Below, piece after piece: positions 1,059-22,548 of a DNA stretch of 64,000 nucleotides (the stretch's first letter is position 1; every line of letters starts with the position of its first letter). The translations under genes were made by a program, and so were the position numbers. The DNA is from Leucobacter salsicius M1-8 (lineage in GTDB: Bacteria > Actinomycetota > Actinomycetes > Actinomycetales > Microbacteriaceae). Location: NCBI RefSeq assembly GCF_000350525.1, contig NZ_AOCN01000007.1:62001-126000 (forward strand). The letters run 5' to 3'. The notes under the pieces were generated by a model. It searched no databases and was not told the DNA's origin. It saw only the letters and a program-made list of their open reading frames with translations.

Positions 1059-2188
1059 GATTCTTCCCCTGCGTTATTACTGTGACTCGCGTAAGTTTCG
1101 AGCAGCCCCGCCGCGGTCTCGGAGTCGTCCACCGTCAAGGCGAAAATACGGCCATCTCGTCGCGAAATGATGAGCCCTTCCCCCGAGCGCATCACGAGAC
1201 CGAACCGACCGGGTGCCCACCGCATTCCCCACCCGCCGAAATCACCGAGGGGCGAGATGTGGCTGCTCGCGGCGTGTGCCACGTCAGCAGCGGGGACGCG
1301 AAACACGGGCCAGCCCGCCACCGACCGGGCTTCGAGTCCGGCAACGTCGATGCGCACGCGAAACCACAGCGAGCAGGTGCTGAGCAGCAAGACGAGCGCG
1401 GTCACTCCCGTCATGATCCAGGTCGCGATGGGCTCCGTCTGCGCAATCCAAGCCGTGACCGTACCCATCGCGAGTGCAGCCAGAGCCACGCCCAACACGA
1501 TGATCAAGCTTCGAGACGGTCGCACCGTGCCCACCCACACCGCGCGTTCAGTTGTCGCGAGCGGCACAGCGTCGGCGGGGGCACCTTCCCCGCCCGAGAT
1601 GTATACCTTGGGTTGCACGAAGTACCCGACTGCTCCCAGCCCGATCCCAATGCCGAATGCGAGTCCCAGGGCCCCGCCAATACTCCCCGCGTCGCGCGCG
1701 TCCGCGAGCCCCAGCTGCATGTGAGTACTGAGCACCCCCATGAGTGAAATGCTGACGGAGAGCCCGAGTGACATCGCAGCGAGGAGGCGATTGAGGGCTG
1801 ACCACACTGCAATCGAACCCTTACCCGACCCAAACACCGCGAGCGACCCGATGAGCAGTCCCAGCCCGCCGCTCAAGCCGCCCACCATGGCAATGTTGAC
1901 GCCCGCACTCATAAAGCTGGTGGGCTCGTCTCCCGACCACTGGGTAGCAATCGGGTTGGGAGTGAACGGTAGCCACGTGATGAGCAGAATGGTCGCGGTG
2001 ATTGCGGCGGCCATCGGCAGCACGAGCCCCACCACGATCGCGGACACCTTCGCCCGGCGCAGTGCGACGAGCTCTTCATCACTGAGGCCGACATGCTCCG
2101 GAGGAAGCGGTCGGTTGGTCGAGCTTGACCGGCCCTGGGATGCTTCACTGGCACCCGGGTGGTGCGGGTGTCGGTGCAGTTCGTTCAT
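1055..2188 (-). CDS. DUF1648-like multi-pass membrane protein
   Basis: A 377-residue predicted membrane protein. After a charged N-terminal tail of about 45 residues, a segment with an LP...PIATQWSG pattern resembles the DUF1648 domain, which is frequent in proteins paired with YtrA/GntR-type regulators. Further hydrophobic segments follow, and the C-terminal part looks soluble. The frame stays open upstream to a TTG at 2242, but ATG at 2188 is preceded by GGAGG nine bases away, so this start is preferred. It lies between a small GntR regulator (ends 2243) and the CPBP protease (4-base overlap), making a three-gene minus-strand operon. The function is unknown. Confidence 0.75.
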   Translation of the reverse strand: MNELHRHPHHPGASEASQGRSSSTNRPLPPEHVGLSDEELVALRRAKVSAIVVGLVLPMAAAITATILLITWLPFTPNPIATQWSGDEPTSFMSAGVNIAMVGGLSGGLGLLIGSLAVFGSGKGSIAVWSALNRLLAAMSLGLSVSISLMGVLSTHMQLGLADARDAGSIGGALGLAFGIGIGLGAVGYFVQPKVYISGGEGAPADAVPLATTERAVWVGTVRPSRSLIIVLGVALAALAMGTVTAWIAQTEPIATWIMTGVTALVLLLSTCSLWFRVRIDVAGLEARSVAGWPVFRVPAADVAHAASSHISPLGDFGGWGMRWAPGRFGLVMRSGEGLIISRRDGRIFALTVDDSETAAGLLETYASHSNNAGEES

Positions 2189-2242
2189 GCGTCGTAGCCT
2201 CCGTGGCTCGTGCTGGTCATGTTCGTATTGGGTTGCAATCAA

Positions 2243-2617
2243 CTACGCCAGGTGTTGACGCTGCGCGGCACTCGCGCGCACGGACACCATCGCGGCGAGG
2301 GCCTCAGCACTAATGCCTCGCGCACGCGCGCGCTCGACGAGGGCATCAATGTCGCCATTCAACTCGGTGAGGTGGGTCACGGCCTCAGTGACCACGGCGC
2401 CGCGGCGGCGCTTCAGGTCGACAAGTCCCTCGTCGCGCAGCAGCTGATACGCGCGCAGCACCGTGTGCACGTTCGCGCCCAGCCCGGTCGCGACCTCGCG
2501 CGCGGGCGGCAGTACCGTGCCCTGCTCGATGCGCCCGGCGAGCATGTCACCGCGCACGGAATCGGCGATCTGCGCATAGATAGGCCGCTCGCTAGCTTCG
2601 TCGATCCGGATCAGCAC
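2243..2617 (-). CDS. short GntR (YtrA-type) transcriptional regulator
   Basis: A 124-residue GntR-family regulator with the N-terminal winged helix (IYAQIADSVRGDMLAGRI, then LPPAREVATGLGANVHTV as recognition region, about residues 12-58) and only a short C-terminal tail, the size of the YtrA subfamily. These usually repress their own operon, which encodes membrane proteins or ABC transporters. Here it heads the operon with the DUF1648 and CPBP genes. The start is GTG at 2617 with AAAGGAAG about eight bases upstream. No clear palindromic operator was found upstream, so autoregulation is an inference from the subfamily. Confidence 0.88.
   Translation of the reverse strand: MLIRIDEASERPIYAQIADSVRGDMLAGRIEQGTVLPPAREVATGLGANVHTVLRAYQLLRDEGLVDLKRRRGAVVTEAVTHLTELNGDIDALVERARARGISAEALAAMVSVRASAAQRQHLA
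2603..2612. repeat. first of ten copies of the palindrome GATCCGGATC
   Basis: Exact copies start at 2603, 7035, 12628, 24575, 26359, 28164, 29995, 49350, 52691 and 60152. Several extend to longer perfect palindromes, for example 14 bases at 24573-24586 and 29993-30006. Copies lie in coding sequence in different reading frames (Asp-Pro-Asp in some, Ile-Arg-Ile in others) and one lies just after a stop codon. The DNA word itself therefore seems to be selected or propagated. Confidence 0.8.
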
Positions 2618-2706
2618 GGGACACCGCTTCCTTTAGTTCTAATAAAACCCTATCAAACGCGCCCTACTCCCGACGCGCGAAACGGGCCATCGACCCAAGC
2701 AACGCG

Positions 2707-2750
2707 AACTGCCCCGCGTCGCTTCCTCGAGGGAGCGACGCGGGGCAGTT
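2707..2750 (-). terminator. hairpin terminator after the acyl-CoA dehydrogenase gene
   Basis: Perfect 17-base arms (2707-2723 and 2734-2750), extendable inward to a tiny loop, sit 15 bases past the stop of the minus-strand dehydrogenase. There is no long T tract, which is common for high-GC actinobacterial terminators. It separates this operon from the GntR operon downstream. Confidence 0.7.
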
Positions 2751-2764
2751 CGGAACAGTGCGAA

Positions 2765-3925
2765 TTAGAACGCAGCGATACCTGTGAGCTCGCGACCGAT
2801 CACGAGCTGGTGCACCTCGTCGGTGCCCTCGTAGGTGCGCACGGATTCGAGGTTCGCCATGTGGCGCATCACGGGGAAGTCAGAGGTGATGCCGTCGCCA
2901 CCCAGGATCGCGCGGCAGGTGCCGGCAATCTTGATGGCCTCGCGCACGTTGTTGAGCTTGCCCACCGAAATCTGCGCGTGCGGAAGCGTGCCCGCGTCCT
3001 TGAGTCGACCGAGGTGCAGCGCGAGCAGCAGGCCCTTCTGGTACTCGAGAAACATGTCGGCGAGCTGGCCCTGGATGAGCTGCTTGCCGCCGATCGGGGC
3101 ACCAAATACCTGGCGGGTCTGCGAGCGCTCGACCGCGGCCTCGAGGCACGAGCGCGCGGCACCCATGACGCCCCAGGCGATGCCGTAGCGCGCCTCGTTG
3201 AGGCACTTGAACGGCGACGAAAGCCCCTTCGATCCGGGCAGGATCGCGTCGAGGGGCAGCCGCACATCATTCAGATCGATCTCGGTCTGCAGCGATGCAC
3301 GCATCGACAGCTTGTTCTCGATCGCGCGCGCTTCGAAGCCCGGGGTATCGGTCGGCACGACGAAGCCGCGCACGATTCCCTCCTCGTCCTTGGCCCAGAT
3401 CACGCCGACCTGCGCGATCGTGGCGAGCCCGATCCAGCGCTTCTTGCCGTTGAGCACCCACTGGTCGCCCTCGCGGCGCGCGGTGGTGATCATCGTGTTG
3501 GGGTCGGAGCCGCCCTGCGGCTCGGTCAGCCCGAAGAAGCCGATTGCTTCGCCGCGCCCCATCGCGGGGAGCCAGCGCTGCTTCTGCTCTTCTGAACCGA
3601 ACTTGTAAATCGCGCCCATTGCGAGCGATCCCTGCACCGACAGTGCGGTACGAAAACCCGAGTCAACGGCTTCAAACTCCATCGCAACGAGGCCGTACGC
3701 CACCGAGGACGCACCTTTCAGCCCGTATCCGTTCATGTACATGCCGAACGCACCGAACTCTCCAACGGCGGGCAACAGCTCGACGGGCAGGCGTCGCTCT
3801 TCAAAGGCGTCGTCAATGATCGGCTGGATCTTGGTCTGCGCGAACTCGCGAGCCTTTAGCTGCCACTCGCGCTCCTCCTCGGTGACATAGTCTGCAACGT
3901 CGAAGAGCTGGTCAATCGTGGTCAT
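2765..3925 (-). CDS. gcdH: glutaryl-CoA dehydrogenase (acyl-CoA dehydrogenase family)
   Basis: A 386-residue FAD enzyme expected to oxidise and decarboxylate glutaryl-CoA to crotonyl-CoA and CO2. The segment FRTALSVQGSLAM aligns with the glutaryl-CoA dehydrogenase motif GYRSAMSVQSSLVM; its Arg92 corresponds to the arginine that binds the substrate gamma-carboxylate. The catalytic base is Glu366 in YEGTDEVH, and the C-terminus ...GRELTGIAAF also fits this subfamily. FGLTEPQGGSDP is the FAD/substrate loop. The start ATG at 3925 has AAGGAA upstream. It lies 74 bases downstream of a family III CoA-transferase on the same strand, an arrangement that supports glutarate (or lysine-derived glutarate) catabolism. 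The alternative is another short acyl-CoA dehydrogenase, but the arginine motif argues against it. Confidence 0.88.
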   Translation of the reverse strand: MTTIDQLFDVADYVTEEEREWQLKAREFAQTKIQPIIDDAFEERRLPVELLPAVGEFGAFGMYMNGYGLKGASSVAYGLVAMEFEAVDSGFRTALSVQGSLAMGAIYKFGSEEQKQRWLPAMGRGEAIGFFGLTEPQGGSDPNTMITTARREGDQWVLNGKKRWIGLATIAQVGVIWAKDEEGIVRGFVVPTDTPGFEARAIENKLSMRASLQTEIDLNDVRLPLDAILPGSKGLSSPFKCLNEARYGIAWGVMGAARSCLEAAVERSQTRQVFGAPIGGKQLIQGQLADMFLEYQKGLLLALHLGRLKDAGTLPHAQISVGKLNNVREAIKIAGTCRAILGGDGITSDFPVMRHMANLESVRTYEGTDEVHQLVIGRELTGIAAF

Positions 3926-3999
3926 GTGGGTTCCTTACTCTGAGAAGTTCGGGGCAAAAAATGAAGCTTGGGGTGACTAAATTTCAGGGGCCGGATCGC

Positions 4000-5199
4000 C
4001 TAGCGATCACGCCACTTGGCGTCTTGATGCTCGCCCACGTTGGGCGGCGGCGCGTGGTAGGTGGCGGGGGTGCGCGACAGCGAAATGGGCAGCGCCACCG
4101 AGCTCAGCGTCTGGCTGGAACCGTCGGGCGCGGTCGCCTCCGTGCGGGCGATCGTGCCGAGGCCGAGCGACTCGGCCAGGTCGAATGCCTGCCCGATCGT
4201 GTTGACTCGACCAGCCGGAATGTTGGCGGTGGTGAAGGCATCGATCCACTCCTGCGCGGGACGGGTACTCAGTTTGGTTTCGAGGGCCGACCGCAGCGCC
4301 ACACGATTGGCGACGCGGGCCGGGTTGTTTGCGAACCGCTCATCAGTGGCGAGCTCGGGGGCGCCGATCACCTCGCACAGGCGCGCGAACTGGCCGTCAG
4401 TTCCGACCGCGAGAGCGAGGGACTGGTCGGCGGCGTGGAACGTCTCGTACGGCGCGATCGACGGGTGTGCGTTGCCCATGCGTGTGGGCGAGACCCCGGT
4501 CTCGAGAGTTGACGACGCCTGGTTGGCGAGGGCCGACAGGAGCGAGCCGAGCAGCGTCACCTTGACGTGCTGTCCCGCGCCAAACGACCCCGAGCCTTCA
4601 GTGTCGCGGGCGCGCAGTGCGGCCTGGATACCGATCACCGAGTTGAGGCCCGTGAGGATGTCGACGAGCGCGACGCCCACCTTGTTGGGCTCGCCACCGT
4701 CAGCATCGGACTGGCCTGTGATGCTCATGAGGCCGCCGACGGCCTGTACAAGCAGGTCGTAGCCCGGCAGATCCTTGCCTGCCTCGTCACCGAAGCCCGA
4801 GATCGAGCAGTACACGACGCCCGGGTTCGCGGCTGCAACCGTTTCGTAGCCGAGCCCGAAGCGGTCCATGGTGCCGGGCTTAAAGTTCTCGATGACGACG
4901 TCGGCCGTGGCGGCGAGCTCGCGCGCACGCTGCATTCCCTCGGGGGCGCGCAGGTCGCACACGACCGAGCGTTTGCCGCGGTTGACGCCCGCGAAGTAGG
5001 TGCTCTGACCAATCGCGTTGGTCGGCGGGTTCCATTGCCGGGTCCCGTCGCCCTCGGGGCTTTCGATCTTGATCACATCTGCGCCCAGGTCGGCGAGGAT
5101 CATGGTGGCGTGCGGCCCCGCGAGTACCCGTGAGAAGTCGGCGACCCGAATTCCCGAGAGCGCGCCGCCCTGCTGCCCGTTCGATGCCCCAGCTGCCAC
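4000..5199 (-). CDS. CaiB/BaiF family III CoA-transferase, probably glutarate CoA-transferase
   Basis: A protein of about 399 residues of the formyl-CoA transferase (family III) type. Features include LSGIRVADFSRVLAGP near the N-terminus, GADVIKIESPEGD, NRGKRSV, and PGYDLLVQAVGG, whose Asp (about residue 148) corresponds to the catalytic aspartate that forms the acyl-anhydride intermediate. Human SUGCT and bacterial relatives move CoA onto glutarate; with the glutaryl-CoA dehydrogenase directly downstream this is the most economical role. The frame allows GTG at 5205, but GAGGA abuts that codon. The GTG at 5199 has proper spacing and is preferred. A PucR regulator is divergent, 133 bases away. 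Substrate identity is inferred from context only. Confidence 0.82.
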   Translation of the reverse strand: MAAGASNGQQGGALSGIRVADFSRVLAGPHATMILADLGADVIKIESPEGDGTRQWNPPTNAIGQSTYFAGVNRGKRSVVCDLRAPEGMQRARELAATADVVIENFKPGTMDRFGLGYETVAAANPGVVYCSISGFGDEAGKDLPGYDLLVQAVGGLMSITGQSDADGGEPNKVGVALVDILTGLNSVIGIQAALRARDTEGSGSFGAGQHVKVTLLGSLLSALANQASSTLETGVSPTRMGNAHPSIAPYETFHAADQSLALAVGTDGQFARLCEVIGAPELATDERFANNPARVANRVALRSALETKLSTRPAQEWIDAFTTANIPAGRVNTIGQAFDLAESLGLGTIARTEATAPDGSSQTLSSVALPISLSRTPATYHAPPPNVGEHQDAKWRDR

Positions 5200-5332
5200 A
5201 ACCACTCCTCGTCACACGTCACAATTGGTGCGCGGTAGTGCACCGTATGCTCAGCAGTCTACGGTGGCCTGCACCCCAAGACCCCGCAGCATTGCACACT
5301 CACCTCGACTCGCATCGTGCAAGAATGACAGT

Positions 5333-6874
5333 ATGGCTTTCTTGTCACAGCTCATCGCGCTCCCCGATTTGGGGCTACGCCTGATCAAGGCGGGCCCGGG
5401 CGACCCCGAGATCAGCTGGGTATCGACCACCGAGCTCCTCGACCTGAGTGAGTATCTCGACGGCGGCGAAGTGTTGCTCACAACGGGCCTCGCGTTCTCC
5501 CATGACGACCCGCGCTGGCGTGACTTCGTGGCAAGTCTCAATCGCGCTCGTATAGCGGCCATCGGCTTTGGTATCGGCGTAAATCACGACGCGGTGCCCG
5601 CCACCCTCATCCAAGCGGCTACCCAGTACCGTGTCGCGCTGTTCGAGATCCCCCTCCCTACCCCGTTCGTGGCGATCAGCAAGGCGGCTGCCGGACTGCT
5701 CCGCGCCGACGAGTTACGTGCGGCCCGCAGCGCACTCCAGGTGCAGCAACGGCTGCTCGACGGCGCGCGCGGCGACCAGGACCCGGCCGAGGTACTCGCG
5801 GTCATCGCGCAGGCCACGGGCCGCCACCTCGCCCTCGTCACGACCGACGGCACACTCGTCGCGAGCACCGCGGGCTTTGCTTTCCAGCAGGGTGCAATAG
5901 AGTACATCGATCTCGATCGGGAGGGCACGCTGCGGCTCGGGGTCACCGGCACCGCGCCGCTCACCCCCGAGGGCAACGCGATTATTGCCGCAGGCTCGAT
6001 GGTGCTCGGTCTCGGGCTCCACGGCGGCCGCGCCGACGAGCTGCGCGAACGCGAGCGCTGGGAACGCCTCGCATCCGGGTTACTCACGGGCACGCACGGC
6101 CCCGATGCACTCGAGATCCTCGCTCCAGCTCTGCCCGAGGCCGAGCACCCCACTCGCCTACGCGCGATCGCGGTGCAGGGCGGTGCGGAAGACGTGGGGG
6201 CCTGGCGTCGACGCCCCCGCAGCGGGCTGGATCGCCTTGTTGCGCCGGATCCCTCGGCCCCGCGCGCGCCCGGACTCGGACTGGCCTGGCAGGTTTGCCC
6301 CGATACTGAGGAAGCGGTCGCCGGTGCGCTCTCCGCTGCGGCGGCCCACGGTCTCGACGCTGTGGTGGGTCGCCCCGTACCCGCGACGCATACGCCGGTG
6401 AGCCGCCGATCCGCCGCCGGGAGGCTGCGTGCGCTCTCCCCCACCGAGCCCCTCTACCGGGCACCCCGCGTACCCACGGTGGTGTGGGCGGACCGCGATG
6501 CTCCCTTGTTCGATGCGCTCGTCGGGCTCTCGGAGTCTGGCGCGGTGCACACGCTCGGCAGCCAGGTGCTAGGCCCCTTGTCATTGCACGCTGAGCGGGC
6601 AGATCTGCCCGATGAGACCGGGCAGGTCGCGCGGCCCGCGGAAACGCTCACGTCGGCCGAGCGCGATCAGTTGCGTGCCACCCTCACTGCGGTGTTCGAA
6701 CATGATGGACAGCGCGGCCCTGCCGCCGCATCCCTCGGCATTCACCGCAACACACTGCGCGATCGTGTCGCACGCATCGAGCGGCTCACGCAGCGGTCTC
6801 TCAGCGACCCCGACGATCGCGCTGAGCTGTGGTTTGCGCTCAGGCTCGAGGACGTGTCCCCGGAACGGGCCTAG
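5333..6874 (+). CDS. PucR family transcriptional regulator
   Basis: A 513-residue regulator. The N-terminal PucR domain contains EYLDGGEVLLTTGLAF (about residues 37-52). The middle is a variable GAF-like sensory region. The C-terminal HTH_30 domain carries AAASLGIHRNTLRDRVARIE, typical of PucR/CdaR proteins. The frame is open for 315 bases further upstream, but that part runs antisense to the CoA-transferase and is not credible; ATG at 5333 starts exactly at the conserved domain. No good ribosome binding site is visible, so a short or leaderless mRNA is possible. It is divergent from the CoA-transferase/dehydrogenase operon and is the likely regulator. Four TGCAC/TGCAA words in the intergenic region (5239-5321) are possible but unproven sites. 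Its stop overlaps the convergent neighbour by four bases. Confidence 0.87.
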   Translation: MAFLSQLIALPDLGLRLIKAGPGDPEISWVSTTELLDLSEYLDGGEVLLTTGLAFSHDDPRWRDFVASLNRARIAAIGFGIGVNHDAVPATLIQAATQYRVALFEIPLPTPFVAISKAAAGLLRADELRAARSALQVQQRLLDGARGDQDPAEVLAVIAQATGRHLALVTTDGTLVASTAGFAFQQGAIEYIDLDREGTLRLGVTGTAPLTPEGNAIIAAGSMVLGLGLHGGRADELRERERWERLASGLLTGTHGPDALEILAPALPEAEHPTRLRAIAVQGGAEDVGAWRRRPRSGLDRLVAPDPSAPRAPGLGLAWQVCPDTEEAVAGALSAAAAHGLDAVVGRPVPATHTPVSRRSAAGRLRALSPTEPLYRAPRVPTVVWADRDAPLFDALVGLSESGAVHTLGSQVLGPLSLHAERADLPDETGQVARPAETLTSAERDQLRATLTAVFEHDGQRGPAAASLGIHRNTLRDRVARIERLTQRSLSDPDDRAELWFALRLEDVSPERA

Positions 6875-14067: not shown

Positions 14068-14919
14068 GTGACCGACGCCTTCGCAAGCTCTGCAACCTCC
14101 CGCATTCGCGCCCTCGAGGCCACACTCGGCCCGAGTGAGGGGGCGGTCGCACGCGCGATACTCGCTCACCACCCCGAGGTGCCACAGTGGTCGACGCAGG
14201 AGCTGGCCGTGGTCGCCGGTACCTCGACCGCGACAGTGATTCGCGCGGCCCAGCGCCTCGGATTTCGAGGATTCCAGCATCTACGCCTCGAACTCGCGCG
14301 TGAGGGCTCGCCTCAGGGCACGACTGCCTTGCAGGGCGGCGACCACATCGATGAGCTCTTTGCCAGTGCCAGCGCGGCGCTCGATGTGAGTCGTCAAGCC
14401 ATCGACCGCGCGACGCTGGCCGCGGCAGCCGCAGCCCTGGCTGACGCACGCCGTGTCGTCTTCGCTGCGAATGGGTTCTCAGCCCCGCCACTTCAGGATG
14501 CCGCAATGCGCTTCGCGACGATCGGGCGCCCCGTCGAGGCGCCGCTCGACATTCTCGCGCAGCAGTTTGCGACGCACACACTCGGCCCGGGTGATGTCTG
14601 TCTCGCGCTCAGCCATTCGGGCGCGAACGCACACACGCTAGCCGCGTGCCGGGCGGCTGCACAGCGTGGTGCCCGCGTGATCGCGCTCTGCAGCTTTGCC
14701 CGCACCCCGCTCTCTGACATCGCAGATCTCACAATCTCGACCGGCGCTTCGGGGCCCCAGCACACGGTCGACCCATTTTTCATTCGACTCGGGCACTCGG
14801 TGCTCCTCCAGGCGCTCGTCGCCGAGCTTGCCCAGCGGAGCTCGCCAGCGCAGCAGTTGGAGATGCGGGAGGTCGTCGCCGACGCACTCACGGACGTGCC
14901 TGTCCCCACCCGCCGATAG
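14068..14919 (+). CDS. MurR/RpiR family transcriptional regulator
   Basis: A 283-residue regulator. Residues 1-77 form the RpiR winged helix-turn-helix (STQELAVVAGTSTATVIRAA is the recognition region). Residues about 115-245 form a SIS domain that binds phosphorylated sugars (ALSHSGANAHTL is the phosphosugar loop). The SIS domain implies a phosphosugar-like effector. It starts at GTG 14068 without a clear ribosome site; TAGCGT six bases upstream could be a -10 box, so translation may be leaderless. It precedes, on the same strand, two phosphatases, an ABC importer and a third phosphatase (15073-21000), which it probably controls. Confidence 0.9.
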   Translation: MTDAFASSATSRIRALEATLGPSEGAVARAILAHHPEVPQWSTQELAVVAGTSTATVIRAAQRLGFRGFQHLRLELAREGSPQGTTALQGGDHIDELFASASAALDVSRQAIDRATLAAAAAALADARRVVFAANGFSAPPLQDAAMRFATIGRPVEAPLDILAQQFATHTLGPGDVCLALSHSGANAHTLAACRAAAQRGARVIALCSFARTPLSDIADLTISTGASGPQHTVDPFFIRLGHSVLLQALVAELAQRSSPAQQLEMREVVADALTDVPVPTRR

Positions 14920-15001
14920 GCCAAATTCAATCTTTGCGCGAACGACACATCAAATTCTGAGTTCGTTTACCGGCCCGACACGTCCATCCTCGAGGCTACA
15001 A

Positions 15002-15041
15002 ATGTAATCGCGTTTCACCTCGGATGTAACCGTCGAAACGC
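15002..15041 (+). promoter_or_regulatory. candidate RpiR operator before the phosphatase/importer operon
   Basis: The 153-base gap after the regulator contains direct repeats ATGTAATCG (15002-15010) and ATGTAACCG (15024-15032), spaced 22 bases or two helical turns. Overlapping them is an inverted repeat GCGTTTC (15010-15016) / GAAACGC (15035-15041). This position, about 30-70 bases before the first phosphatase, suits a regulatory site. Confidence 0.5.
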
Positions 15042-15072
15042 ACACTTCACATGTGTATCGAAAGGCAGAGCC

Positions 15073-15744
15073 GTGCACACCATCGTTTCCGTCGAAGGCA
15101 GTTACAACGCGCGCACCATTGGCACAAAGCACATGCCCTGGCTCGTACGCACCGCAGCGCTTGACGAGCTCACCGCCGACGGCGAGCGCACCCTGCGTGC
15201 CCAGGGCGTCGATCTCATCATCGATCTACGTGAGCCGTCCGAGCAACGCACCCGGCGGCACGGCATCCCTGTTTCCTCGGTACCGCTGTATGGCGAGCTG
15301 CCCCCTGCCCACGGCACCATTCATGAGATTTATGCGGGGCTGGTGCGCGACCGCGGTTCCCAGATCGCCGCCGCTGTCTCGGCAATTGCAGCGCACCCGG
15401 GTACCGCAGCGGTGCACTGTACCGCGGGCAAAGACCGCACCGGAATCGTGGTGGCCCTCGCACGCCTCGTTGCCGGCGATTCCCGTACCGAGATCCTCGC
15501 CGACTACGTGCTGTCGGGCAACACGGTGCGCCCGGCGCGTGCCGCGATCGTCACCGACCAGCTTGACTCACTCGGGCTTGAGGGGGCGGTGCGTGCGGCG
15601 GCCGAGGAACTACATCTCGACAGCCCGTCCGCCGCGCTCGCTGGCGCACTCGAACTCGTGAACGAACTCGGGGGTCCCATCGCCTATCTGCTCGACAATG
15701 GCATGTCTGTCGCGCATCTTCGGTCGCTGGCGGAGCGGGCATGA
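15073..15744 (+). CDS. tyrosine-phosphatase-fold phosphatase with HCxxGKDRTG loop
   Basis: A 223-residue cysteine phosphatase. The P-loop HCTAGKDRTG (Cys116, Arg122) includes the Lys-Asp pair seen in MptpB/LipA-type atypical phosphatases and in phosphoinositide phosphatases, rather than the usual protein-tyrosine-phosphatase loop. DLREPSEQ (about residues 51-58) is the conserved N-terminal region of this family. There is no signal peptide, so it acts in the cytoplasm. It starts at GTG 15073 with AAAGG about seven bases upstream. Its stop overlaps the next start by four bases. With the linked importer it may release phosphate from an imported phospho-compound such as an inositol phosphate; a protein substrate cannot be excluded. 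Confidence 0.85.
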   Translation: MHTIVSVEGSYNARTIGTKHMPWLVRTAALDELTADGERTLRAQGVDLIIDLREPSEQRTRRHGIPVSSVPLYGELPPAHGTIHEIYAGLVRDRGSQIAAAVSAIAAHPGTAAVHCTAGKDRTGIVVALARLVAGDSRTEILADYVLSGNTVRPARAAIVTDQLDSLGLEGAVRAAAEELHLDSPSAALAGALELVNELGGPIAYLLDNGMSVAHLRSLAERA

Positions 15745-16535
15745 GCCGGGCTAGCGGGCGATTCACGGTGCTGCATCTCAGCGACGTCCACGCCACCGAA
15801 TCGGGGTTGCTCTACGGTGCTGTGAACGGGCTCGAGCAGCTCGAACGCGTGGGCGCATACGCCCGGGCAACTGGCATCACCCCCGAGGCCGTGATCGTCA
15901 CAGGTGACCTGATTCAGCGTGGCAACGCCGGCGCCTACGCCGCGGTGGACGTGGCCTGTCGCGAGCTCGAGGCAGCAGTCGGGGCCCCTGTCTTCACGGT
16001 GCTCGGCAATCACGATAGCCCGGTACACGCGCGGGCCTTGCGCCACCATAATCTGAACCACTACGGAGTGCACTTCGTTGACGGCTACCGCATCATCCGG
16101 CTGGACTCGCACGCAGGGCGGCTCGATGCCACCCAGCTGGACTGGTTGGGCGAGACTCTTGCTTCGCCGTCCCCGCGCGGCACAATCATCGCCCTGCATC
16201 ACCCGCCGCTCGGTTCTCCCATGCCTGTGCTCAGCAAACAAGGGTTGGCGGATGCCAGTGCGCTGCTCGATGTCCTCGAGGGTTCAGATACGCGAGCGAT
16301 TCTCGCCGGGCATTTTCACCACGTGCTCACCGCGTCGGTGCACAAGATCCCAGTGTTCGTCGGTCCATCGCTCGCCTACCACCAGATCATGAACGCAGGG
16401 CCTGCAGCGGTCGCGGGCCATGCCGCCCCCATGTTCTCGCTGGTGCAGTTCACCGATACCGATGTGAGCGCGTCAACGATCGCTCTCACAGCGCCAGAGC
16501 CGCTGTTCACCCAGCCCATCTCTCGCGTGCCATAG
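15741..16535 (+). CDS. calcineurin-like metallophosphoesterase (CpdA/GpdQ type)
   Basis: A 264-residue two-metal phosphoesterase with the complete motif set: LSDVH, VTGDLIQRG, LGNHDSP, LHHPP and GHFHHV. Class III members of this fold hydrolyse phosphodiesters (cyclic AMP, glycerophosphodiesters) or monoesters. It lacks a signal peptide and is cytoplasmic. It is translationally coupled to the upstream phosphatase (4-base overlap) and followed after 64 bases by the importer's binding-protein gene. A stepwise model, in which this enzyme cuts an imported diester and the other phosphatases remove the remaining phosphate, is inference. Confidence 0.88.
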   Translation: MSRASGRFTVLHLSDVHATESGLLYGAVNGLEQLERVGAYARATGITPEAVIVTGDLIQRGNAGAYAAVDVACRELEAAVGAPVFTVLGNHDSPVHARALRHHNLNHYGVHFVDGYRIIRLDSHAGRLDATQLDWLGETLASPSPRGTIIALHHPPLGSPMPVLSKQGLADASALLDVLEGSDTRAILAGHFHHVLTASVHKIPVFVGPSLAYHQIMNAGPAAVAGHAAPMFSLVQFTDTDVSASTIALTAPEPLFTQPISRVP

Positions 16536-16599
16536 CCCACGCGTCTCAGGTCCTCCCCCTTCCAATTTCGCACTACCCAACACATACAGAAAGCAGACC

Positions 16600-17634
16600 A
16601 TGTCACGCACCCGTTCGCTCGGCACCATCGCCGCGCTCTCGCTGTCAGCCCTCGCCCTCACTGCATGCTCCGCTGCAGGCCCTGACGCGTCAGCAGGTGA
16701 TTCAGCGGCCGAGGCCGCGGAGCCCTCAACGATCACGTTGTACACTTCGGAACCCCAGGAAAAGATCGATGCCATCGTCGCGGCGTTCTCGAGCGACAAT
16801 CCCGAGATCGAAGTTGACGTCTTCCGAGCCGGAACCGGTGACTTGACCGCTCGTATCGCCGCTGAGGAAAAGTCCGGGGACATCGGAGCTGATCTGCTGC
16901 TCGCTGCTGACGCTGGCACATTTGAGGACTACGCTGATCGCGACCTGCTACTCGAGTACGAGTCACCCGAGGCAGCGAACATCAATCAAGATCTCATCGA
17001 CCCCGAGCACTTTTACGTGGGCACACGCCTACTTCCGACGGTCATCGCAATCAACACCAACGTGATCACCGACGCTCCTACCTCGTGGCAGGATCTCACG
17101 GATCCCGCATATGCCGGCAAGATCGCAATGCCCAACCCTGATGTGTCGGGCGCTGCCGCCTACAACGCCGCGGTGTGGCTGAATGAGCCTGCGCTGGGCG
17201 AGCCATGGCTGCAGGGCCTCGCTGCCAACACCCCGCTCATTGCCGAGAGCAACGGCCCCGTGTCGCAGGCCGTGGCCGACGGCTCGAATCCGGTCGGCAT
17301 CGTCGTAGATTCTCTCGTGCGCGACCTCGCCGCGGCGGGCTCGCCCATTGAGGCGGTGTACCCGGAGGAGGGTGTGCCGTTCGTATCGCAGCCAGTCGGC
17401 ATCTTTGCCAACACCGACGAGTCCGACGCGTCGAAGCTGTTCGTCGATTTCTTGATCAGCAAGAAGGGGCAAGAGATTGCTGCCTCGCAGTCTTACCTTC
17501 CGATCCGCGAAGATGTCGACAGCCCTGAGGGTGCCCCCGCAGTCGCAGACATCACGCTCTTGACGCCTGAGCTCGAGACCATTCGTTCGACCCAGGCCGG
17601 GGCCATCGAGACGTTTAATGCGCTCTTCCAGTAA
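16600..17634 (+). CDS. ABC importer substrate-binding lipoprotein (ferric/phosphosugar/aminoethylphosphonate class)
   Basis: A 344-residue extracellular binding protein with a lipoprotein signal peptide (SALALTACSAAG; lipidated Cys23). The mature domain belongs to the type 2 periplasmic-binding superfamily that includes FbpA, the phosphonate-binding PhnS type and the hexose-phosphate binder AfuA: TITLYTSEPQEKIDAIVAAF at the start, LTDPAYAGKIAMPNPDVSG, and KGQEIAASQSYLPIREDV near the end. Many such proteins are annotated as iron binders by default. The paired phosphatases favour a phosphorylated organic ligand here. It overlaps the permease gene by 17 bases. Confidence 0.85.
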   Translation: MSRTRSLGTIAALSLSALALTACSAAGPDASAGDSAAEAAEPSTITLYTSEPQEKIDAIVAAFSSDNPEIEVDVFRAGTGDLTARIAAEEKSGDIGADLLLAADAGTFEDYADRDLLLEYESPEAANINQDLIDPEHFYVGTRLLPTVIAINTNVITDAPTSWQDLTDPAYAGKIAMPNPDVSGAAAYNAAVWLNEPALGEPWLQGLAANTPLIAESNGPVSQAVADGSNPVGIVVDSLVRDLAAAGSPIEAVYPEEGVPFVSQPVGIFANTDESDASKLFVDFLISKKGQEIAASQSYLPIREDVDSPEGAPAVADITLLTPELETIRSTQAGAIETFNALFQ

Positions 17635-19285
17635 CACGCTCTCCCGCGCCGTCGCGGCGCCGGCCCTCCCGGGCTGGCGCCGCGTGGATGGTCTCGCCGG
17701 GCTCCGTTTCGGGCTCTGGTGCGCGGTGGCTGCGCTCGTGCTCGTACCGGTACTGGCGATCGTTTTACTGGCCGCCACCGGAGACGGATGGGCACATCTT
17801 GCGGATCCGGATGTATTGACCGCGACCGCGAACTCACTCACCTCGGCCGGCATCTCGGCCGCCCTCGCGGTCGCGTTTGGGACCGCGCTTGCGCTGCTGC
17901 TCGAGCGCACCGATCTTCCGGGGCGCCGCGCGCTTCGGTTACTCGCCCTGAGCCCGATGCTCATGCCCCCGTTCGTAGGAGCAATCGCCTGGCTCAGCTT
18001 GTTGGGCCCGTCCTCCGCCGTCAACAAGTGGTGGACCAACCGCTTCGGTGGCCCCCTGTGGAACCTCTACGGCGGAGACGGCGTCGTGTTTCTGCTTACG
18101 CTGCACAGCTTTCCCATCGCCATGATGATCGTCACCGCGGCACTTAAGCGCGTCCCGGCCGATCTTGAACAGGCCGCACGCATCGCGGGCTCATCAGCAC
18201 CGCGCGCGCTCTGGGAAGTTACAGTGCCGCTGCTACGCCCCGCCATGCTCTCCTCCTTCACGCTAATAGCGGTGTCAAATCTCGCCGATTTTGGCATTCC
18301 CTCGATCATCGGCTTGCCCGATCGGTATGTCACTCTGTCAACGCTCGTGTATCGCTACCTGCAGTCGGGCACCGTCGACGATCCCCTTGCAGTGGTCGCT
18401 GCGATCGGGTTCGTGCTGCTTGTCATCGCGCTACTCGGTGTGGTTATTGATCTGCTGCGCTCTCGCACACGCGTCGAGCTCGACGCGCAGTCTGCTGCCC
18501 CGGATCGCCTCCCCCTGGGCCGCGCCCGCTTGGGGGCCTCGATCATCACGACCACGGGTATCCTCGTGCTCACGGTGTTGCCGCTCGTGACGCTAACGAT
18601 CCAGGCGCTGCTGCCCGCCCCAGGGGTACCGTTCACACTTGAAACCATCACGCTCGCAAGTTTCGAACGCGCGCTCACGGCGTCGGGCACTCTGCAAGGT
18701 GTCGGAAACTCGCTCATGCTGGCAACCCTTGCTGCGGTAATTTGTGGAGCGCTGGGGCTCGCGATTGGCACGCTCGTCACTCGAACCCGTGCTCGCGACA
18801 ACGGCGCGCTTCTCGGCCTGTCGTTGATGCCACAGGCCATCCCTGGCCTGGTCATCGCTGTGGCATGGCTCGTTATCGCTCCCCACGTCGGCTTGCAAAA
18901 CACACCCTGGATCATTCTCTGCGCCTATCTGACCTCGTTCCTGGCCCTAGTGGTGCAGTCAGTGAGTGCGCCGCTCGCGGCGACACCTACGACCGCGGAA
19001 GAGGCCGCTCGTATCTCTGGCGCGAGCCGACTCCGGGCGCTCTGGGACATTTCCTGCCGGATGGCCGTCCCCGCCGCGATCTCTGGGGCCGTTCTCGTGG
19101 GCCTCACTGCAGTGCGCGAGCTCACTCTCTCAGTACTCCTACTCTCGCCCGGCTCGCAGACGCTTGGCGTCGTCATCTTCAACCTGCAACAAGCTGGCGC
19201 TTACAATGCCTCGTCTGCGCTGTCCCTCATCGTCGCTGTGGTTGGCCTCGCTGGACTCGGCTTGACCGCCCGCTCTCACCGTTAG
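17618..19285 (+). CDS. ABC importer permease, duplicated FbpB-type
   Basis: A 555-residue permease made of two fused halves with about twelve membrane helices, the architecture of FbpB/AfuB/ThiP. Each half has an EAA loop that docks the ATPase: EQAARIAGSSAPRALWEV (about residues 185-202) and EEAARISGASRLRALWDI (about 462-479). It starts at ATG 17618 inside the end of the binding-protein gene, without its own ribosome site, so translation is coupled. The ATPase gene follows after nine bases. Confidence 0.9.
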   Translation: MRSSSNTLSRAVAAPALPGWRRVDGLAGLRFGLWCAVAALVLVPVLAIVLLAATGDGWAHLADPDVLTATANSLTSAGISAALAVAFGTALALLLERTDLPGRRALRLLALSPMLMPPFVGAIAWLSLLGPSSAVNKWWTNRFGGPLWNLYGGDGVVFLLTLHSFPIAMMIVTAALKRVPADLEQAARIAGSSAPRALWEVTVPLLRPAMLSSFTLIAVSNLADFGIPSIIGLPDRYVTLSTLVYRYLQSGTVDDPLAVVAAIGFVLLVIALLGVVIDLLRSRTRVELDAQSAAPDRLPLGRARLGASIITTTGILVLTVLPLVTLTIQALLPAPGVPFTLETITLASFERALTASGTLQGVGNSLMLATLAAVICGALGLAIGTLVTRTRARDNGALLGLSLMPQAIPGLVIAVAWLVIAPHVGLQNTPWIILCAYLTSFLALVVQSVSAPLAATPTTAEEAARISGASRLRALWDISCRMAVPAAISGAVLVGLTAVRELTLSVLLLSPGSQTLGVVIFNLQQAGAYNASSALSLIVAVVGLAGLGLTARSHR

Positions 19286-19294
19286 GACTATTTC

Positions 19295-20407
19295 GTGTCA
19301 TCTGTCTCGCTCTCTGGCGTTAGCCTCGCTTACCCGGGCGGCCAGCTGGGTCTCGCTGACGTCGACTTCACCGTACGCGACGGCGAGTTCGTCGCGCTTG
19401 TCGGCCCCTCCGGGTCCGGCAAGACAACGCTGCTACGCACGGTCGCGGGTTTTGTGCGCCCCACAGCGGGGTGCGTCTCGATCGCCGACTCAGTAGTGGC
19501 TGACCCGCACCGCTCACTCGAACCCGAGCGACGCGGGCTCGGAATGGTGTTTCAGCAGCACGCAGTCTGGCCACACTGGTCGGTGGGGCGCAACATCGAA
19601 TACCCACTCAAGCGGGCGGGTATCGCCAAACCCGAGCGCGTCAAAAGGGTGGCTGAAGCCCTCGAACTCGTGGGGCTCGCTGGCTACGCCCTGCGTAACC
19701 CCGCGACCCTGTCGGGAGGGCAGCGGCAGCGTGTGGCCATCGCGCGCGCCATCGTGGCCCGGCCGCGGGTGCTATTGCTTGATGAGGCGCTCTCCGCGCT
19801 CGACGAGCCGCTGCGGGATCGCCTCCGTCTCGAGCTTCGCGAGCTCACGAGGGAACTCGGGCTCACCGTGCTGCACGTCACTCACGACCGGGCCGAGGCA
19901 CTCGCGGTCGCCGACCGGATCGTCGTACTCGACGGCGGTCGGATTCAACAGGTCGGGGCTCCCGCCGCGCTTTTGGCCGAGCCCTCGAGCGCGTTTGTGG
20001 CCTCCTTTATCGCCGACGCCACCGTCTTAACGGGCACGACAGACGATATGGGATTCGTCTCTCACGAATCGGGCCTGTCGGTACCCGCGGCTGCCTTGAG
20101 CGCGCCGGGAGGCAGGGTGTCGTTGCCCACTGGCGCCACCGACATCGCGATCCTTCCCCATGCAGTTCGAGTCGTACCCGATGCTGAGGGTACAGGGCGA
20201 GTCGTTTCGTCTCTGTTTGGTAGGGACGGCGACGATCTCGTCGTCGATTGGAACGGAGTGCGGATCCGTTCTCGCGTGCCAGGGGCGCGGTGCGCCGCAG
20301 GTACCCTCGTACGTCTTGAGGTCGAGCAAGCCCTGATTTATCCCAGCTCGGACGCCCGCGGTTCCTCCCCCGCTCTCACAGCGGGGCGCAGTACGGTGGG
20401 AGCATGA
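19295..20407 (+). CDS. ABC importer ATP-binding protein (FbpC/PotA-like)
   Basis: A 370-residue ATPase with Walker A GPSGSGKTT, the Q-loop region in GMVFQQHAVWP, signature LSGGQRQR, Walker B VLLLDEAL, and His switch LHVTHDRAEA. The last 120 residues form the TOBE-like regulatory region seen in importers of this class. It starts at GTG 19295 with GGA upstream. Its end overlaps the histidine phosphatase start by four bases, linking that enzyme directly to the transporter. Confidence 0.92.
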   Translation: MSSVSLSGVSLAYPGGQLGLADVDFTVRDGEFVALVGPSGSGKTTLLRTVAGFVRPTAGCVSIADSVVADPHRSLEPERRGLGMVFQQHAVWPHWSVGRNIEYPLKRAGIAKPERVKRVAEALELVGLAGYALRNPATLSGGQRQRVAIARAIVARPRVLLLDEALSALDEPLRDRLRLELRELTRELGLTVLHVTHDRAEALAVADRIVVLDGGRIQQVGAPAALLAEPSSAFVASFIADATVLTGTTDDMGFVSHESGLSVPAAALSAPGGRVSLPTGATDIAILPHAVRVVPDAEGTGRVVSSLFGRDGDDLVVDWNGVRIRSRVPGARCAAGTLVRLEVEQALIYPSSDARGSSPALTAGRSTVGA

Positions 20408-21000
20408 CCGTGTGCGATTCTGTCCCGATTGCGCTGGTGCGTCACGGCGAAACCGACTGGAATTTGGATCGCCGTATTCAAGGTCGCACTGACATTCCCC
20501 TGAACGAAACTGGCCGGCAGCAAGCACGCGAGATTTCCCAGATCCTCGCAGCTCACGGCTCTTGGCGTGGCGTCCGGGCATCGCCACTCGGCCGAGCGTC
20601 CGAGACAGCTCAAATCATCGCTGCAGGCCTCAAACTCGATGCCCCAGCCGTCGACGAGCGCTTTTGGGAACGTGATTTCGGTGAGGCCGAGGGGCTCGCC
20701 GTTTCTGACGCACAGCAGCGATGGCCGGGGTTAGACAGCATTCCCGGGGCGGAGTCCCTCGAAGATTTGCGCGCACGTACTGCGACCGCGCTGCTCCAGG
20801 TCCTCATCGACGCCCCCGGCACTATCGTGGTGGCCCACGGCGCAATGCTCCGCGCAGGAATGGCGCATGCGACAGGCGCCGAAGTCCCTCGGGTGCTCAA
20901 CGGCGAGGTCTGGCTGATGTACCCGTCAGGTGGCAAGGCCAGGCTCGAACGTCTTGCCGCCCCTGCCTCGGCAATCGTAGCTACTGCAGCGCAGAGGTGA
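20404..21000 (+). CDS. histidine phosphatase family protein
   Basis: A 198-residue phosphatase of the phosphoglycerate-mutase-like fold. RHGETDWN contains the catalytic His that is phosphorylated, ASPLGRASETA supplies the second arginine, ERDFGEAEG the acid and VVAHGAMLR the second catalytic His. Enzymes of this type act on sugar phosphates, nucleotides or phospho-alcohols in the cytoplasm. The start overlaps the ATPase gene by four bases, so it is part of the importer operon. It is the third phosphatase fold in the cluster. Its 3' end overlaps the convergent cardiolipin synthase gene by 20 bases. Confidence 0.88.
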   Translation: MTVCDSVPIALVRHGETDWNLDRRIQGRTDIPLNETGRQQAREISQILAAHGSWRGVRASPLGRASETAQIIAAGLKLDAPAVDERFWERDFGEAEGLAVSDAQQRWPGLDSIPGAESLEDLRARTATALLQVLIDAPGTIVVAHGAMLRAGMAHATGAEVPRVLNGEVWLMYPSGGKARLERLAAPASAIVATAAQR

Positions 21001-22462
21001 GTCGGGCCAGGCCGTCGAGCAACTGGGACCGCAGCGGCTGCCGCTGCCATTCTTCTAGCGTGAGCTCACGCGCGTTGGCCCGATAGTAGTCGTTGACTTC
21101 ATCGAGATCACGCACAAAACTCGTGCCGTGCACGACCATCGAGATCTCCATGTTGAGACCGAAGGATCGCTGGTCCATGTTCGAGGACCCCACCACCGCC
21201 ACTGCGTCGTCGACGGTGAAGTGCTTGGAGTGCAGGATGTATGGCGCCTTGAACATCCAGATGCGCACGCCCGCACGCAACAGCTCCTCGTAGTACGACC
21301 GTTGCGCGTGGTACACGACCGCCTGGTCTCCGATCTCAGACACAAATAGCTCGACCTGCACCCCGCGACCGGTGGCGGCGCGCACAGCATTCATGATCGA
21401 GCCGTCCGGCACGAAGTATGGGCTCGTAATGCTAATGCGGCGCTGCGCCGTGTACATCAGCGCCACAAACACCTGCAGGTTGTTCTCCCCGGCGTAACCG
21501 GGGCCACTCGGCACGATCTGGCACTCGAGGTTACCCGGCATCTGAAGTTCGAGCGGGTTGTCGGTGAGATGAGTGAGATACTCATCGGTCTCGAGGTACC
21601 AGTCCCCCTGAAACACGGCTTCGAGACCCAGCACGATGGGGCCTTCAACCCGCACCATGAGGTCCTTCCAGTGCAGCCCGCGTCGCCTGTTGGATGGCTT
21701 GTTATAGCTGGAGTCAACGAGGTTTTGGGACCCCATAAATCCGACCTTGCCGTCGATCACGATGAGCTTGCGGTGGTTGCGCAGGTCGGGGCGCTGGTAC
21801 TCTCCCCGCCAGGGGCGCACGGGCAGCATATATGCCCAGTCTGCTCCCATCTCATCAAGCGCATCCGCGGTGCGCTTCATGCCCGGGTTGCGTACGGCCG
21901 AGATGTGGTCGGTCAGTACACGCACCTTCACACCGCGGGCGCTGACCTCACGCAGTGCCGCGAATACGTCGGAGGAGGTGTCATCAAACACCAAAATGTA
22001 GAACTCGACGTGAACGTAGGCTTGGGCCTCTCGAATCGCCGCGGCCATGTGGGCGATGCTCTCTTCGTAGTCGATCGAGATCGAGGCGGTGTTGCCCTGC
22101 ATCATGGGCTGGGCGCCGAGTGTGCGCCCGAGCTTGACGACGTTCTCGAGACCGGGCTGCAGCGGCTCGCCTTCCCAGACGAGACCCCCCTCTTCACGGT
22201 CCGCGATCTGCTTCACAAAGTGATTGATCGCTTCTTGCTTCTGCTCTCGCTTCTTAGGCAACCGCTTGCTGCCAATAATGAGAAACAGCAGCAGTCCTGG
22301 CACCGGCAAGAAGAAGATGGCCATGAGCCACGCCATGCCCGATGTCGGGCGGCGATTGCGCGGCACAATGAACAACGCAGCGATTCTGATGAGATTGTCG
22401 ATGACCAGGACCGCAAAGGTCCAGGCAACGGGCCAATTGATATCTGCCCAACTGAGCATCAT
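20981..22462 (-). CDS. cls: cardiolipin synthase (phospholipase D family)
   Basis: An enzyme of about 493 residues that condenses phosphatidylglycerol or CDP-diacylglycerol substrates into cardiolipin at the membrane. Two N-terminal helices (VAWTFAVLVIDNLIRIAALF and AWLMAIFFLPVPGLLLFLII) precede the catalytic part. Two HKD motifs are present: HRKLIVIDGKVGFMGSQN and HSKHFTVDDAVAVVGSSN. GTG 22465, ATG 22462 and ATG 22459 are all possible starts. GGGGAG seven bases before 22462 favours that one. It is followed upstream by small membrane-protein genes on the same strand. Confidence 0.92.
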   Translation of the reverse strand: MMLSWADINWPVAWTFAVLVIDNLIRIAALFIVPRNRRPTSGMAWLMAIFFLPVPGLLLFLIIGSKRLPKKREQKQEAINHFVKQIADREEGGLVWEGEPLQPGLENVVKLGRTLGAQPMMQGNTASISIDYEESIAHMAAAIREAQAYVHVEFYILVFDDTSSDVFAALREVSARGVKVRVLTDHISAVRNPGMKRTADALDEMGADWAYMLPVRPWRGEYQRPDLRNHRKLIVIDGKVGFMGSQNLVDSSYNKPSNRRRGLHWKDLMVRVEGPIVLGLEAVFQGDWYLETDEYLTHLTDNPLELQMPGNLECQIVPSGPGYAGENNLQVFVALMYTAQRRISITSPYFVPDGSIMNAVRAATGRGVQVELFVSEIGDQAVVYHAQRSYYEELLRAGVRIWMFKAPYILHSKHFTVDDAVAVVGSSNMDQRSFGLNMEISMVVHGTSFVRDLDEVNDYYRANARELTLEEWQRQPLRSQLLDGLARLTSALQ

Positions 22463-22548
22463 CACTGCACTCCCCTCAGACGAAACCTTGCTTGGTTCAC
22501 CCTATCGGGAGTTTTCGCTTCGCCCTCGCAAAAGGGCGGCGCAATTCG

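Follow-up and report, generated by a model that had tools for sequence, protein, structure and literature searches.

A conserved seven-gene operon in Leucobacter couples an ABC importer to three phosphohydrolases and may scavenge organic phosphodiesters

The window analysed here, a stretch of 64,000 nucleotides from Leucobacter salsicius M1-8 (contig NZ_AOCN01000007.1, positions 62,001 to 126,000; genome size 3.19 Mb), carries at 14068-21000 seven genes, all on the + strand, encoding an RpiR-type regulator, a Cys-based phosphatase (PTP), a metallophosphoesterase (MPE), a substrate-binding protein (SBP) whose nearest named relatives are in Leucobacter, a fused permease, an ATP-binding cassette (ABC) ATPase and a histidine phosphatase (HISP). 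Each open reading frame (ORF) has a Pfam match above gathering score, which bears out the seven gene families that an earlier note, made from the letters alone, had placed there on one strand. The features of the region are:

14068-14919, + strand: regulator of the RpiR/MurR family with a GTG start; HTH_6 (52.3 bits) and SIS (45.7 bits) both exceed gathering score, and an SxSG motif is seen by eye
15003-15030, + strand: predicted operator TGTAAT-N3-GTTTCA-N7-TGTAAC, with an outer 19-bp inverted repeat at 15012-15030, 42 nt 5' of the phosphatase start
15073-15744, + strand: PTP (PF13350) with the P-loop HCTAGKDRTG, an atypical lipid phosphatase motif
15741-16535, + strand: MPE of calcineurin fold (PF00149), nearest solved relative Rv0805, metal-site motif retained
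16600-17634, + strand: lipoprotein-type SBP (Cys23) of the FbpA/AfuA/PhnS2 superfamily, in a subfamily of its own
17618-19285, + strand: fused permease, a single ORF with two BPD_transp_1 stretches
19295-20407, + strand: ABC ATPase, Pfam match above gathering score
20404-21000, + strand: HISP, branch 1 (PF00300), PhoE/CobC-like
21031-21047, + strand: terminator-like stem followed by a T-rich tail, 3' of the last gene, found by consensus match alone

The genes overlap at three junctions (PTP/MPE by 4 nt, SBP/permease by 17 nt, ATPase/HISP by 4 nt) and are separated at the others by 153 nt (RpiR-PTP), 64 nt (MPE-SBP) and 9 nt (permease-ATPase). Of the 4-base overlaps between phosphatase pairs described in the earlier note, the one between PTP and MPE stands, and that is the sole adjacent phosphatase pair; the 17 bases it put between binding protein and permease, and the 4 between ATPase and third phosphatase, are overlaps rather than gaps. 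Terminator-like stems found by consensus number 9 in the region, against a mean of 3.9 in shuffled sequence.

We scanned named genomes with the SBP, kept the best 80 of 136 loci and analysed them together with the window, an uneven sample in which 17 of the 80 are Leucobacter and two loci (L097 and L098) are identical. Neighbourhoods complete over 3.5 kb upstream and 4.5 kb downstream number 72, the window included: 41 hold all seven genes, 22 hold SBP, permease and ATPase alone, and 9 are partial. Full sets occur in Leucobacter, Microbacterium, Pseudoclavibacter, Agrococcus, Labedella, Planctomonas, Frigoribacterium and Zimmermannella, and at five Rhodococcus loci. Genes flanking the seven vary between genera in the 11 loci that we read, with common flanks at three close Rhodococcus loci. 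Chance adjacency is rejected on this pattern of a recurring set amid differing outside genes, and the seven genes are a conserved unit; the neighbourhood search proposed in the earlier note thus finds the phosphatase linkage kept in related genomes.

An SBP orthologue (E < 1e-100, at least 53% identity) is present in 20 of the 299 genomes of the family sample, that of L. salsicius included; the next full-length matches lie at 34% identity, and a 55% match in one genome (G279) is limited to the last 85 residues. Across the class-wide sample a match below 1e-100 is found in just 4 of 394 genomes, so the system is patchy in distribution. Mapped on the SBP tree, the full-set label requires 11 changes and the transporter-only label 6, which indicates repeated loss or gain of parts of the operon. 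One record (L084, WNZI01000002.1), under the title Vibrio cholerae strain 35D, carries a full Microbacterium-type cassette whose SBP falls inside Microbacterium in the tree, and looks mislabelled or contaminated.

The gap between regulator and first phosphatase holds a further common element. A pattern written from 15 RpiR-first phosphatase gaps, with k-mer counts over 47 gaps in view, finds the 19-bp inverted repeat in 48 of 52 RpiR-phosphatase gaps, including 33 of the 37 not read beforehand, against averages of 0.76 of 52 for random stretches of the same loci and 0.12 for shuffled gaps; operator-bearing loci are often close relatives, and these counts are therefore not independent. A looser pattern, set after the first count, matches 50 of 52 gaps (control 0.76), and a scan of spacers from 2 to 12 nt gives 50 matches at 7 nt, 3 at 2 nt and 1 at 11 nt. 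Because the 28-bp site of the window has a single match in its own genome at up to 3 mismatches (backwards control 0), RpiR looks like a local regulator acting at this one predicted operator.

The PTP P-loop agrees with HCXXGKDR[TA]G, the motif that defines atypical lipid phosphatases (ALPs), tested members of which act on phosphoinositides (PMC3091653; this and the other papers are cited for those parts of their text on which we drew), and its core is invariant in 17 of 17 proteins. A promiscuous soil member of the PTP family has some phytase activity (PMC6409689). A second PF13350-family PTP is encoded elsewhere in the L. salsicius genome. MPE is nearest to Rv0805 (E 1.5e-36 to 2hy1) and has the metal site of class III cyclic nucleotide phosphodiesterases (D-x-H, GD, GNHD, H, GHxH), invariant in 19 of 19 proteins; its score with the CpdA equivalog PRK11148, 67.6 bits, is below the cut-off of 225. 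No further Rv0805-like gene was found in the same genome at E 1e-30, and further ones are present in Rhodococcus jostii. HISP is nearest to PhoE and CobC, its best model being alpha-ribazole phosphatase (96 bits against a cut-off of 163). No signal peptide was seen by eye in any of the three hydrolases, so they should act inside the cell.

Fourteen other MPE regions from a phylum-wide search lie in varied contexts and gave no RpiR or PTP matches. In one of them (L170, 5957-10706) the MPE, a more distant one, has as neighbours a creatininase-like gene and an ABC transporter of another kind (by eye), and is perhaps another importer-linked phosphoesterase. Convergent to the operon of the window, a cardiolipin-synthase-like ORF (by eye) on the - strand, 20981-22465, overlaps the HISP end by 20 nt.

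The Cys23 of SBP lies in a lipobox-like stretch and is invariant in 20 aligned proteins. A confident structure model (mean pLDDT 87.6) finds as its best PDB matches FbpA-, AfuA-, P5PA-, MctA- and PhnS-type proteins, and those among the nearest solved SBPs that have reported phospho-ligands bind hexose phosphates and pyridoxal phosphate (PMC4546632, PMC8427247). Using the residue lists of these two reports, with the numbering matched by us at an inferred offset of 2, we found the phosphate loop of AfuA and P5PA retained as G78-T79-G80, S183-G184 and N218-G219. T79-G80, S183-G184 and N218-G219 are present in all 42 full-set and all 25 transporter-only SBPs, and G78 differs in one of the 67.

The sugar-contacting part of the AfuA pocket is altered: Glu229 is kept as E257, and the ring residues His205 and Asp206 are replaced by S/Y238 and L239, which disfavours hexose phosphate bound as in AfuA. 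Ferric proteins of the FbpA type ligate Fe3+ through a consecutive Tyr pair. Iron-ligating Tyr residues, which the earlier note had named, together with Fe3+ binding, as a finding that would count against organophosphate uptake, are absent as a pair: in an alignment with Vibrio FbpA, read for this pair alone, the second Tyr falls in a gap, and at position 238, the place of the first, 26 of the 42 full-set proteins have Y and the other 16 have S. Iron binding in the FbpA mode is rejected on this ground, and membership of PhnS2 on score (TIGR03261, 131.4 bits against a cut-off of 392.75). Since the listed pocket positions are nearly identical in the 42 full-set and the 25 transporter-only SBPs, the two groups probably share a ligand, which is probably neither Fe3+ held as in FbpA nor a hexose phosphate held as in AfuA.

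Relatives outside Actinomycetota place the same subfamily of importer beside other hydrolases. A tblastn search of plasmids with SBP yielded 71 records at E 1e-40, Phaeobacter accounting for 27, with relatives of 34-45% identity, mostly in Pseudomonadota, and we read 14 chosen for variety (H1, H3, H23, H24, H25, H28, H29, H30, H31, H33, H36, H37, H39 and H40). At least one phosphohydrolase lies beside the transporter in 12 of the 14: a hydrolase of metallo-beta-lactamase (MBL) fold in 10 (a ribonuclease by annotation in H37), a histidine phosphatase in 6, SurE in 3 (clear in Pfam for H29), a HAD acid phosphatase in 2 and a HAD-IIB protein in one (H31); in H30, from Aerococcus and the sole Bacillota case, a HAD phosphatase lies on the other strand. 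Three MBL proteins scanned show weak likeness to beta-CASP and other nucleases, and the H3 HAD protein matches PNKP phosphatase (88 bits, cut-off 27.6). Regulators are of DeoR/GlpR type in H3 and H23 and sugar-binding, SorC-type by annotation, in H25, H29 and H33; the best models are GlpR for H3 (133 of 331 bits) and Bacillus DeoR for H29 (186 of 420). A megablast search of the Escherichia coli collection returned no near match to the Enterobacter version.

All 14 plasmid SBPs keep T79, S183-G184 and N218-G219, and positions at least 90% common to them and the window protein include R76, T79, A103-D104, S183-G184-A185, N218-G219, E257 and Y299, among others. Eight more distant SBPs retain just Y48 and G258 of 48 listed positions. 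This sharing by the 14 and not by the 8 marks, as judged from residues, a subfamily in which the pocket is for the most part shared and the phosphohydrolases vary.

The regulator and two of the hydrolases also accompany an unrelated importer. Among ten transporter-only genomes searched for PTP and MPE (one, L129, with a cut upstream flank), two have an adjacent PTP-MPE pair elsewhere, as R. jostii has a second one. There the order is RpiR, UgpC-like ATPase, a CUT1 binding protein, PTP, MPE and two UgpA/UgpE-like permeases. A search at E 1e-60 finds the CUT1 binding protein in two families: in that of G912, which we take to be that of Rhodococcus, 29 of 201 genomes have it, and in that of L. 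salsicius 3 of 199. We assembled 19 loci, namely 13 fetched from the 29, all three of the latter, and L190, L191 and L192, of which L190 (R. rhodnii) is one more of the 29. RpiR, PTP, MPE, binding protein and ATPase are all present at 13 of the 19 (L247 and L254 being cut by contig ends), and five more distant loci retain MPE with no match to RpiR or PTP. The CUT1 binding protein has UgpB as its sole NCBIfam match, at 39.2 bits against a cut-off of 411, and the ATPase passes the UgpC model (456 against 432 bits).

In the trees the MPEs of the cassette cluster together (96/97), and Rv0805-type and CUT1-type enzymes make up a separate group (96/97), within which these two types stand next to each other (97/88). 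CUT1-type PTPs fall with background PTPs, away from cassette PTPs (89/99, moderate), which the tree does not itself establish as one group. RpiR proteins form two groups (100/99 and 99/98) whose mutual relation the tree leaves unresolved and which include 6 and 2 background rows from same-genus genomes with unchecked neighbourhoods. On these topologies, separate recruitment to cassette and CUT1 cluster is well supported for MPE and moderately so for PTP, and is open for RpiR. An inner element like GTAAY-N3-RTTYC, a loose pattern written after the CUT1 gaps were viewed, occurs in 12 of 13 CUT1 gaps (control 0.17) and in 43 of 52 cassette gaps (control 0.75); the outer repeat is in none of the 13.

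Flanks of the CUT1 clusters hold no consistent additional enzyme. HISP-like ORFs seen by eye near L253 and L255 were not counted, the first being separated by an intervening ORF and the second lying beside cytochrome-biogenesis-like genes. In R. jostii a second MPE-like ORF (by eye) follows the cluster immediately (L192, 6332-7171). L191 (M. paludicola, 2036-5630) is degenerate: it still has PTP and MPE, but a shortened binding protein, an RpiR that matches in two pieces, and no match to ATPase or permeases; the other importer stands alone elsewhere in that genome (L079). L248 and L252 have CUT1 genes and MPE but gave no match to PTP or RpiR; immediately upstream of these clusters are genes resembling those for hydrolases, thioesterases and acyl-CoA dehydrogenases (by eye), and a different substrate is possible there.

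The importer, and not any single enzyme, is the constant element of the cassette and its plasmid relatives. Its recurring company, a diesterase-like metal hydrolase and a phosphomonoesterase, joined by a phosphosugar-type regulator in the full sets and 5 of the 14 plasmid regions, is that expected for an imported polyol or sugar phosphodiester. We therefore propose, at a probability of roughly 0.55, that the seven genes form a scavenging operon that imports a small organic phosphodiester, or a closely related phosphoester, with a polyol or sugar part and hydrolyses it to alcohol and phosphate. The lipoprotein SBP would capture the diester outside the cell, the permease and ATPase would import it intact, MPE would cleave it inside, and PTP and HISP would then remove phosphate from the resulting monoester; RpiR probably senses a phospho-intermediate and would act as a repressor at the 15003-15030 operator as long as substrate is lacking. 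Phosphorylation of the cargo, its diester nature, this order of reactions, and binding of the repeat and repression by RpiR are all points that we infer. Our first guess at the likeliest cargo would be a glycerophosphodiester, with a ribonucleotide-type diester second; among the former, glycerophosphoinositol fits best in our view, because the PTP motif is of phosphoinositide type.

Several observations weigh against this proposal. The transporter stands alone in 22 of the 72 neighbourhoods while its SBPs keep nearly the same pocket; the genome of Corynebacterium gallinarum (L139), whose 53% SBP relative has no adjoining phosphatases, gave no match to PTP or MPE, that of L111 (Millisia) none to MPE and that of L137 none to PTP. 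In the pocket, Thr60 of AfuA corresponds to Asp104, an acid near the presumed phosphate, and Thr150 to Ala185, and G80 is not shared by the 14 plasmid SBPs outside Actinomycetota. Two plasmid regions (H1 and H36) have no hydrolase adjoining the transporter, a DeoR- or SorC-type regulator is found in just 5 of 14, and distant SBP kin (30-34%) lie beside carboxylate-catabolism-like genes (by eye). The organophosphate-uptake idea of the earlier note thus fares well on the missing Tyr pair, the conserved phosphatase linkage and the other phosphohydrolases beside the importer subfamily outside Actinomycetota, and poorly on the lone transporters.

One alternative, which we consider unlikely, is that the cargo is a ribonucleotide-type diester, such as a 2',3'-cyclic nucleotide or short oligonucleotide, opened by the diesterase and brought to the nucleoside by the phosphatases. 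It would accommodate the SurE 5'/3'-nucleotidases (3 of 14) and HAD acid phosphatases (2 of 14, the scanned one matching PNKP) of the plasmid regions, their MBL hydrolases with the three weakly nuclease-like cases, the SorC-type regulator best matched by Bacillus DeoR, the alpha-ribazole phosphatase model of HISP, and the closeness of MPE to Rv0805, known as a cyclic nucleotide phosphodiesterase. However, these families are broad and, SurE apart, named models score far below their cut-offs; the parallel importer is of the carbohydrate class CUT1, with a weak UgpB match alone, and PTP carries a phosphoinositide-type P-loop.

We likewise doubt that the cargo is a phosphomonoester (inositol, pentose, hexose or glycerol phosphate), with MPE serving as a phosphatase or on a side product. 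RpiR-, GlpR- and SorC-type regulators often sense sugar phosphates, which counts for a monoester, as do the hexose phosphate and pyridoxal phosphate ligands of the nearest solved SBPs (PMC4546632, PMC8427247). Against it are the replacement of AfuA His205/Asp206 by S/Y238 and L239 and the recurrence of a diesterase-like metal hydrolase: MPE in the cassette, MPE with CUT1, and on plasmids an MBL protein with a presumed diesterase role.

It seems rather improbable that the transporter serves a non-phosphorylated solute and that the phosphatases travel with it as signalling or housekeeping enzymes. The nearly unaltered pocket of transporter-only forms and the one searched genome with neither PTP nor MPE would suit such an arrangement; the conserved set, its coupling, the single operator-like site and the different hydrolase families around relatives of the same importer argue otherwise. 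Least probable is a ferric or metal-chelate importer whose phosphatases are neighbours for another reason: the fold class of FbpA and the metal-citrate protein MctA and the ferric-uptake annotation of Corynebacterium relatives point that way, but nothing aligns with the second iron Tyr, Ser takes the place of the first in 16 of the 42 full-set proteins, and phosphohydrolases recur beside the plasmid relatives.

The case of Corynebacterium glutamicum bears on that annotation. From synteny and the C. gallinarum relative, which has no phosphatases beside it, we take cg0508-0506 to be probably the orthologous transporter. These genes have been called a ferric transporter, yet are not under DtxR control (PMC2807442); in a copRS mutant, both cg0507 and cg0508 are reduced (PMC3140484). 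In Rhodococcus fascians and Rhodococcus-type loci (L112, L189) a lone transporter lies near YcnI/CopC/CopD-like copper genes (by eye).

Among described systems, AfuABC shares with ours the SBP superfamily, most phosphate-loop positions and a former annotation as an iron transporter; it differs in identity (22-23%) and in having His205/Asp206, and the parts of its account on which we drew mention no phosphatases or RpiR (PMC4546632). P5PA has the Gly-Thr-Gly phosphate loop and Ser-Gly helix start at 21% identity, and the parts of its own account on which we drew mention no phosphatases (PMC8427247). PhnS2/PhnU2/PhnT2 (TIGR03261, TIGR03262, TIGR03265) are the best-scoring named models for SBP and permease, but at 131, 152 and 265 bits against cut-offs of 393, 593 and 458, and no phosphonate-degrading gene is among the seven. 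ALPs of MptpB/Lmo1800 type have the same P-loop motif (PMC3091653), whereas PTP here, known from sequence alone, sits in an import operon; Rv0805 has the fold and metal-site motif of the cassette MPEs, which form their own tree group. GpxB and UgpB, which are unrelated importers, can serve the same glycerol phosphate in one cell (PMC12718374), and the UgpBAEC/GpxB pair thus resembles the two unrelated importers for one organophosphate that we propose for R. jostii, except that GpxB is of the PhnD-type family and our CUT1 binding protein scores 39 bits against 411 for UgpB.

The gene combination was not found in open-licence full texts, a search that leaves most subscription literature outside, and a literature search for glycerophosphoinositol uptake, judged by its listing, gave nothing relevant. 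New here are the occurrence of RpiR, PTP and MPE families together beside a CUT1 importer that is unrelated to the one in the cassette, and the other phosphohydrolases beside the plasmid relatives. More tentatively, the SBP subfamily, spread over Actinomycetota, Pseudomonadota and one Bacillota case, might constitute an undescribed class of importers for intact phosphodiesters such as glycerophosphoinositol, around which operons would have been built repeatedly with diesterases that are not homologous to each other (calcineurin fold or MBL), with phosphatases (PTP, histidine, SurE or HAD) and with regulators (RpiR, DeoR or SorC), the trio of RpiR, PTP and diesterase serving a CUT1 importer as well.

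Genome annotations often give transporters of this superfamily the label 'iron' or '2-aminoethylphosphonate' with no tested substrate. For one subfamily there is now a substrate class concrete enough to test, as well as a regulator for which a single operator is predicted and a parallel importer for comparison, and an annotation that has reached the model species C. glutamicum could be corrected as a result. If true, our proposal would mean that bacteria can also recover phosphorus from organic matter by taking up diesters intact.

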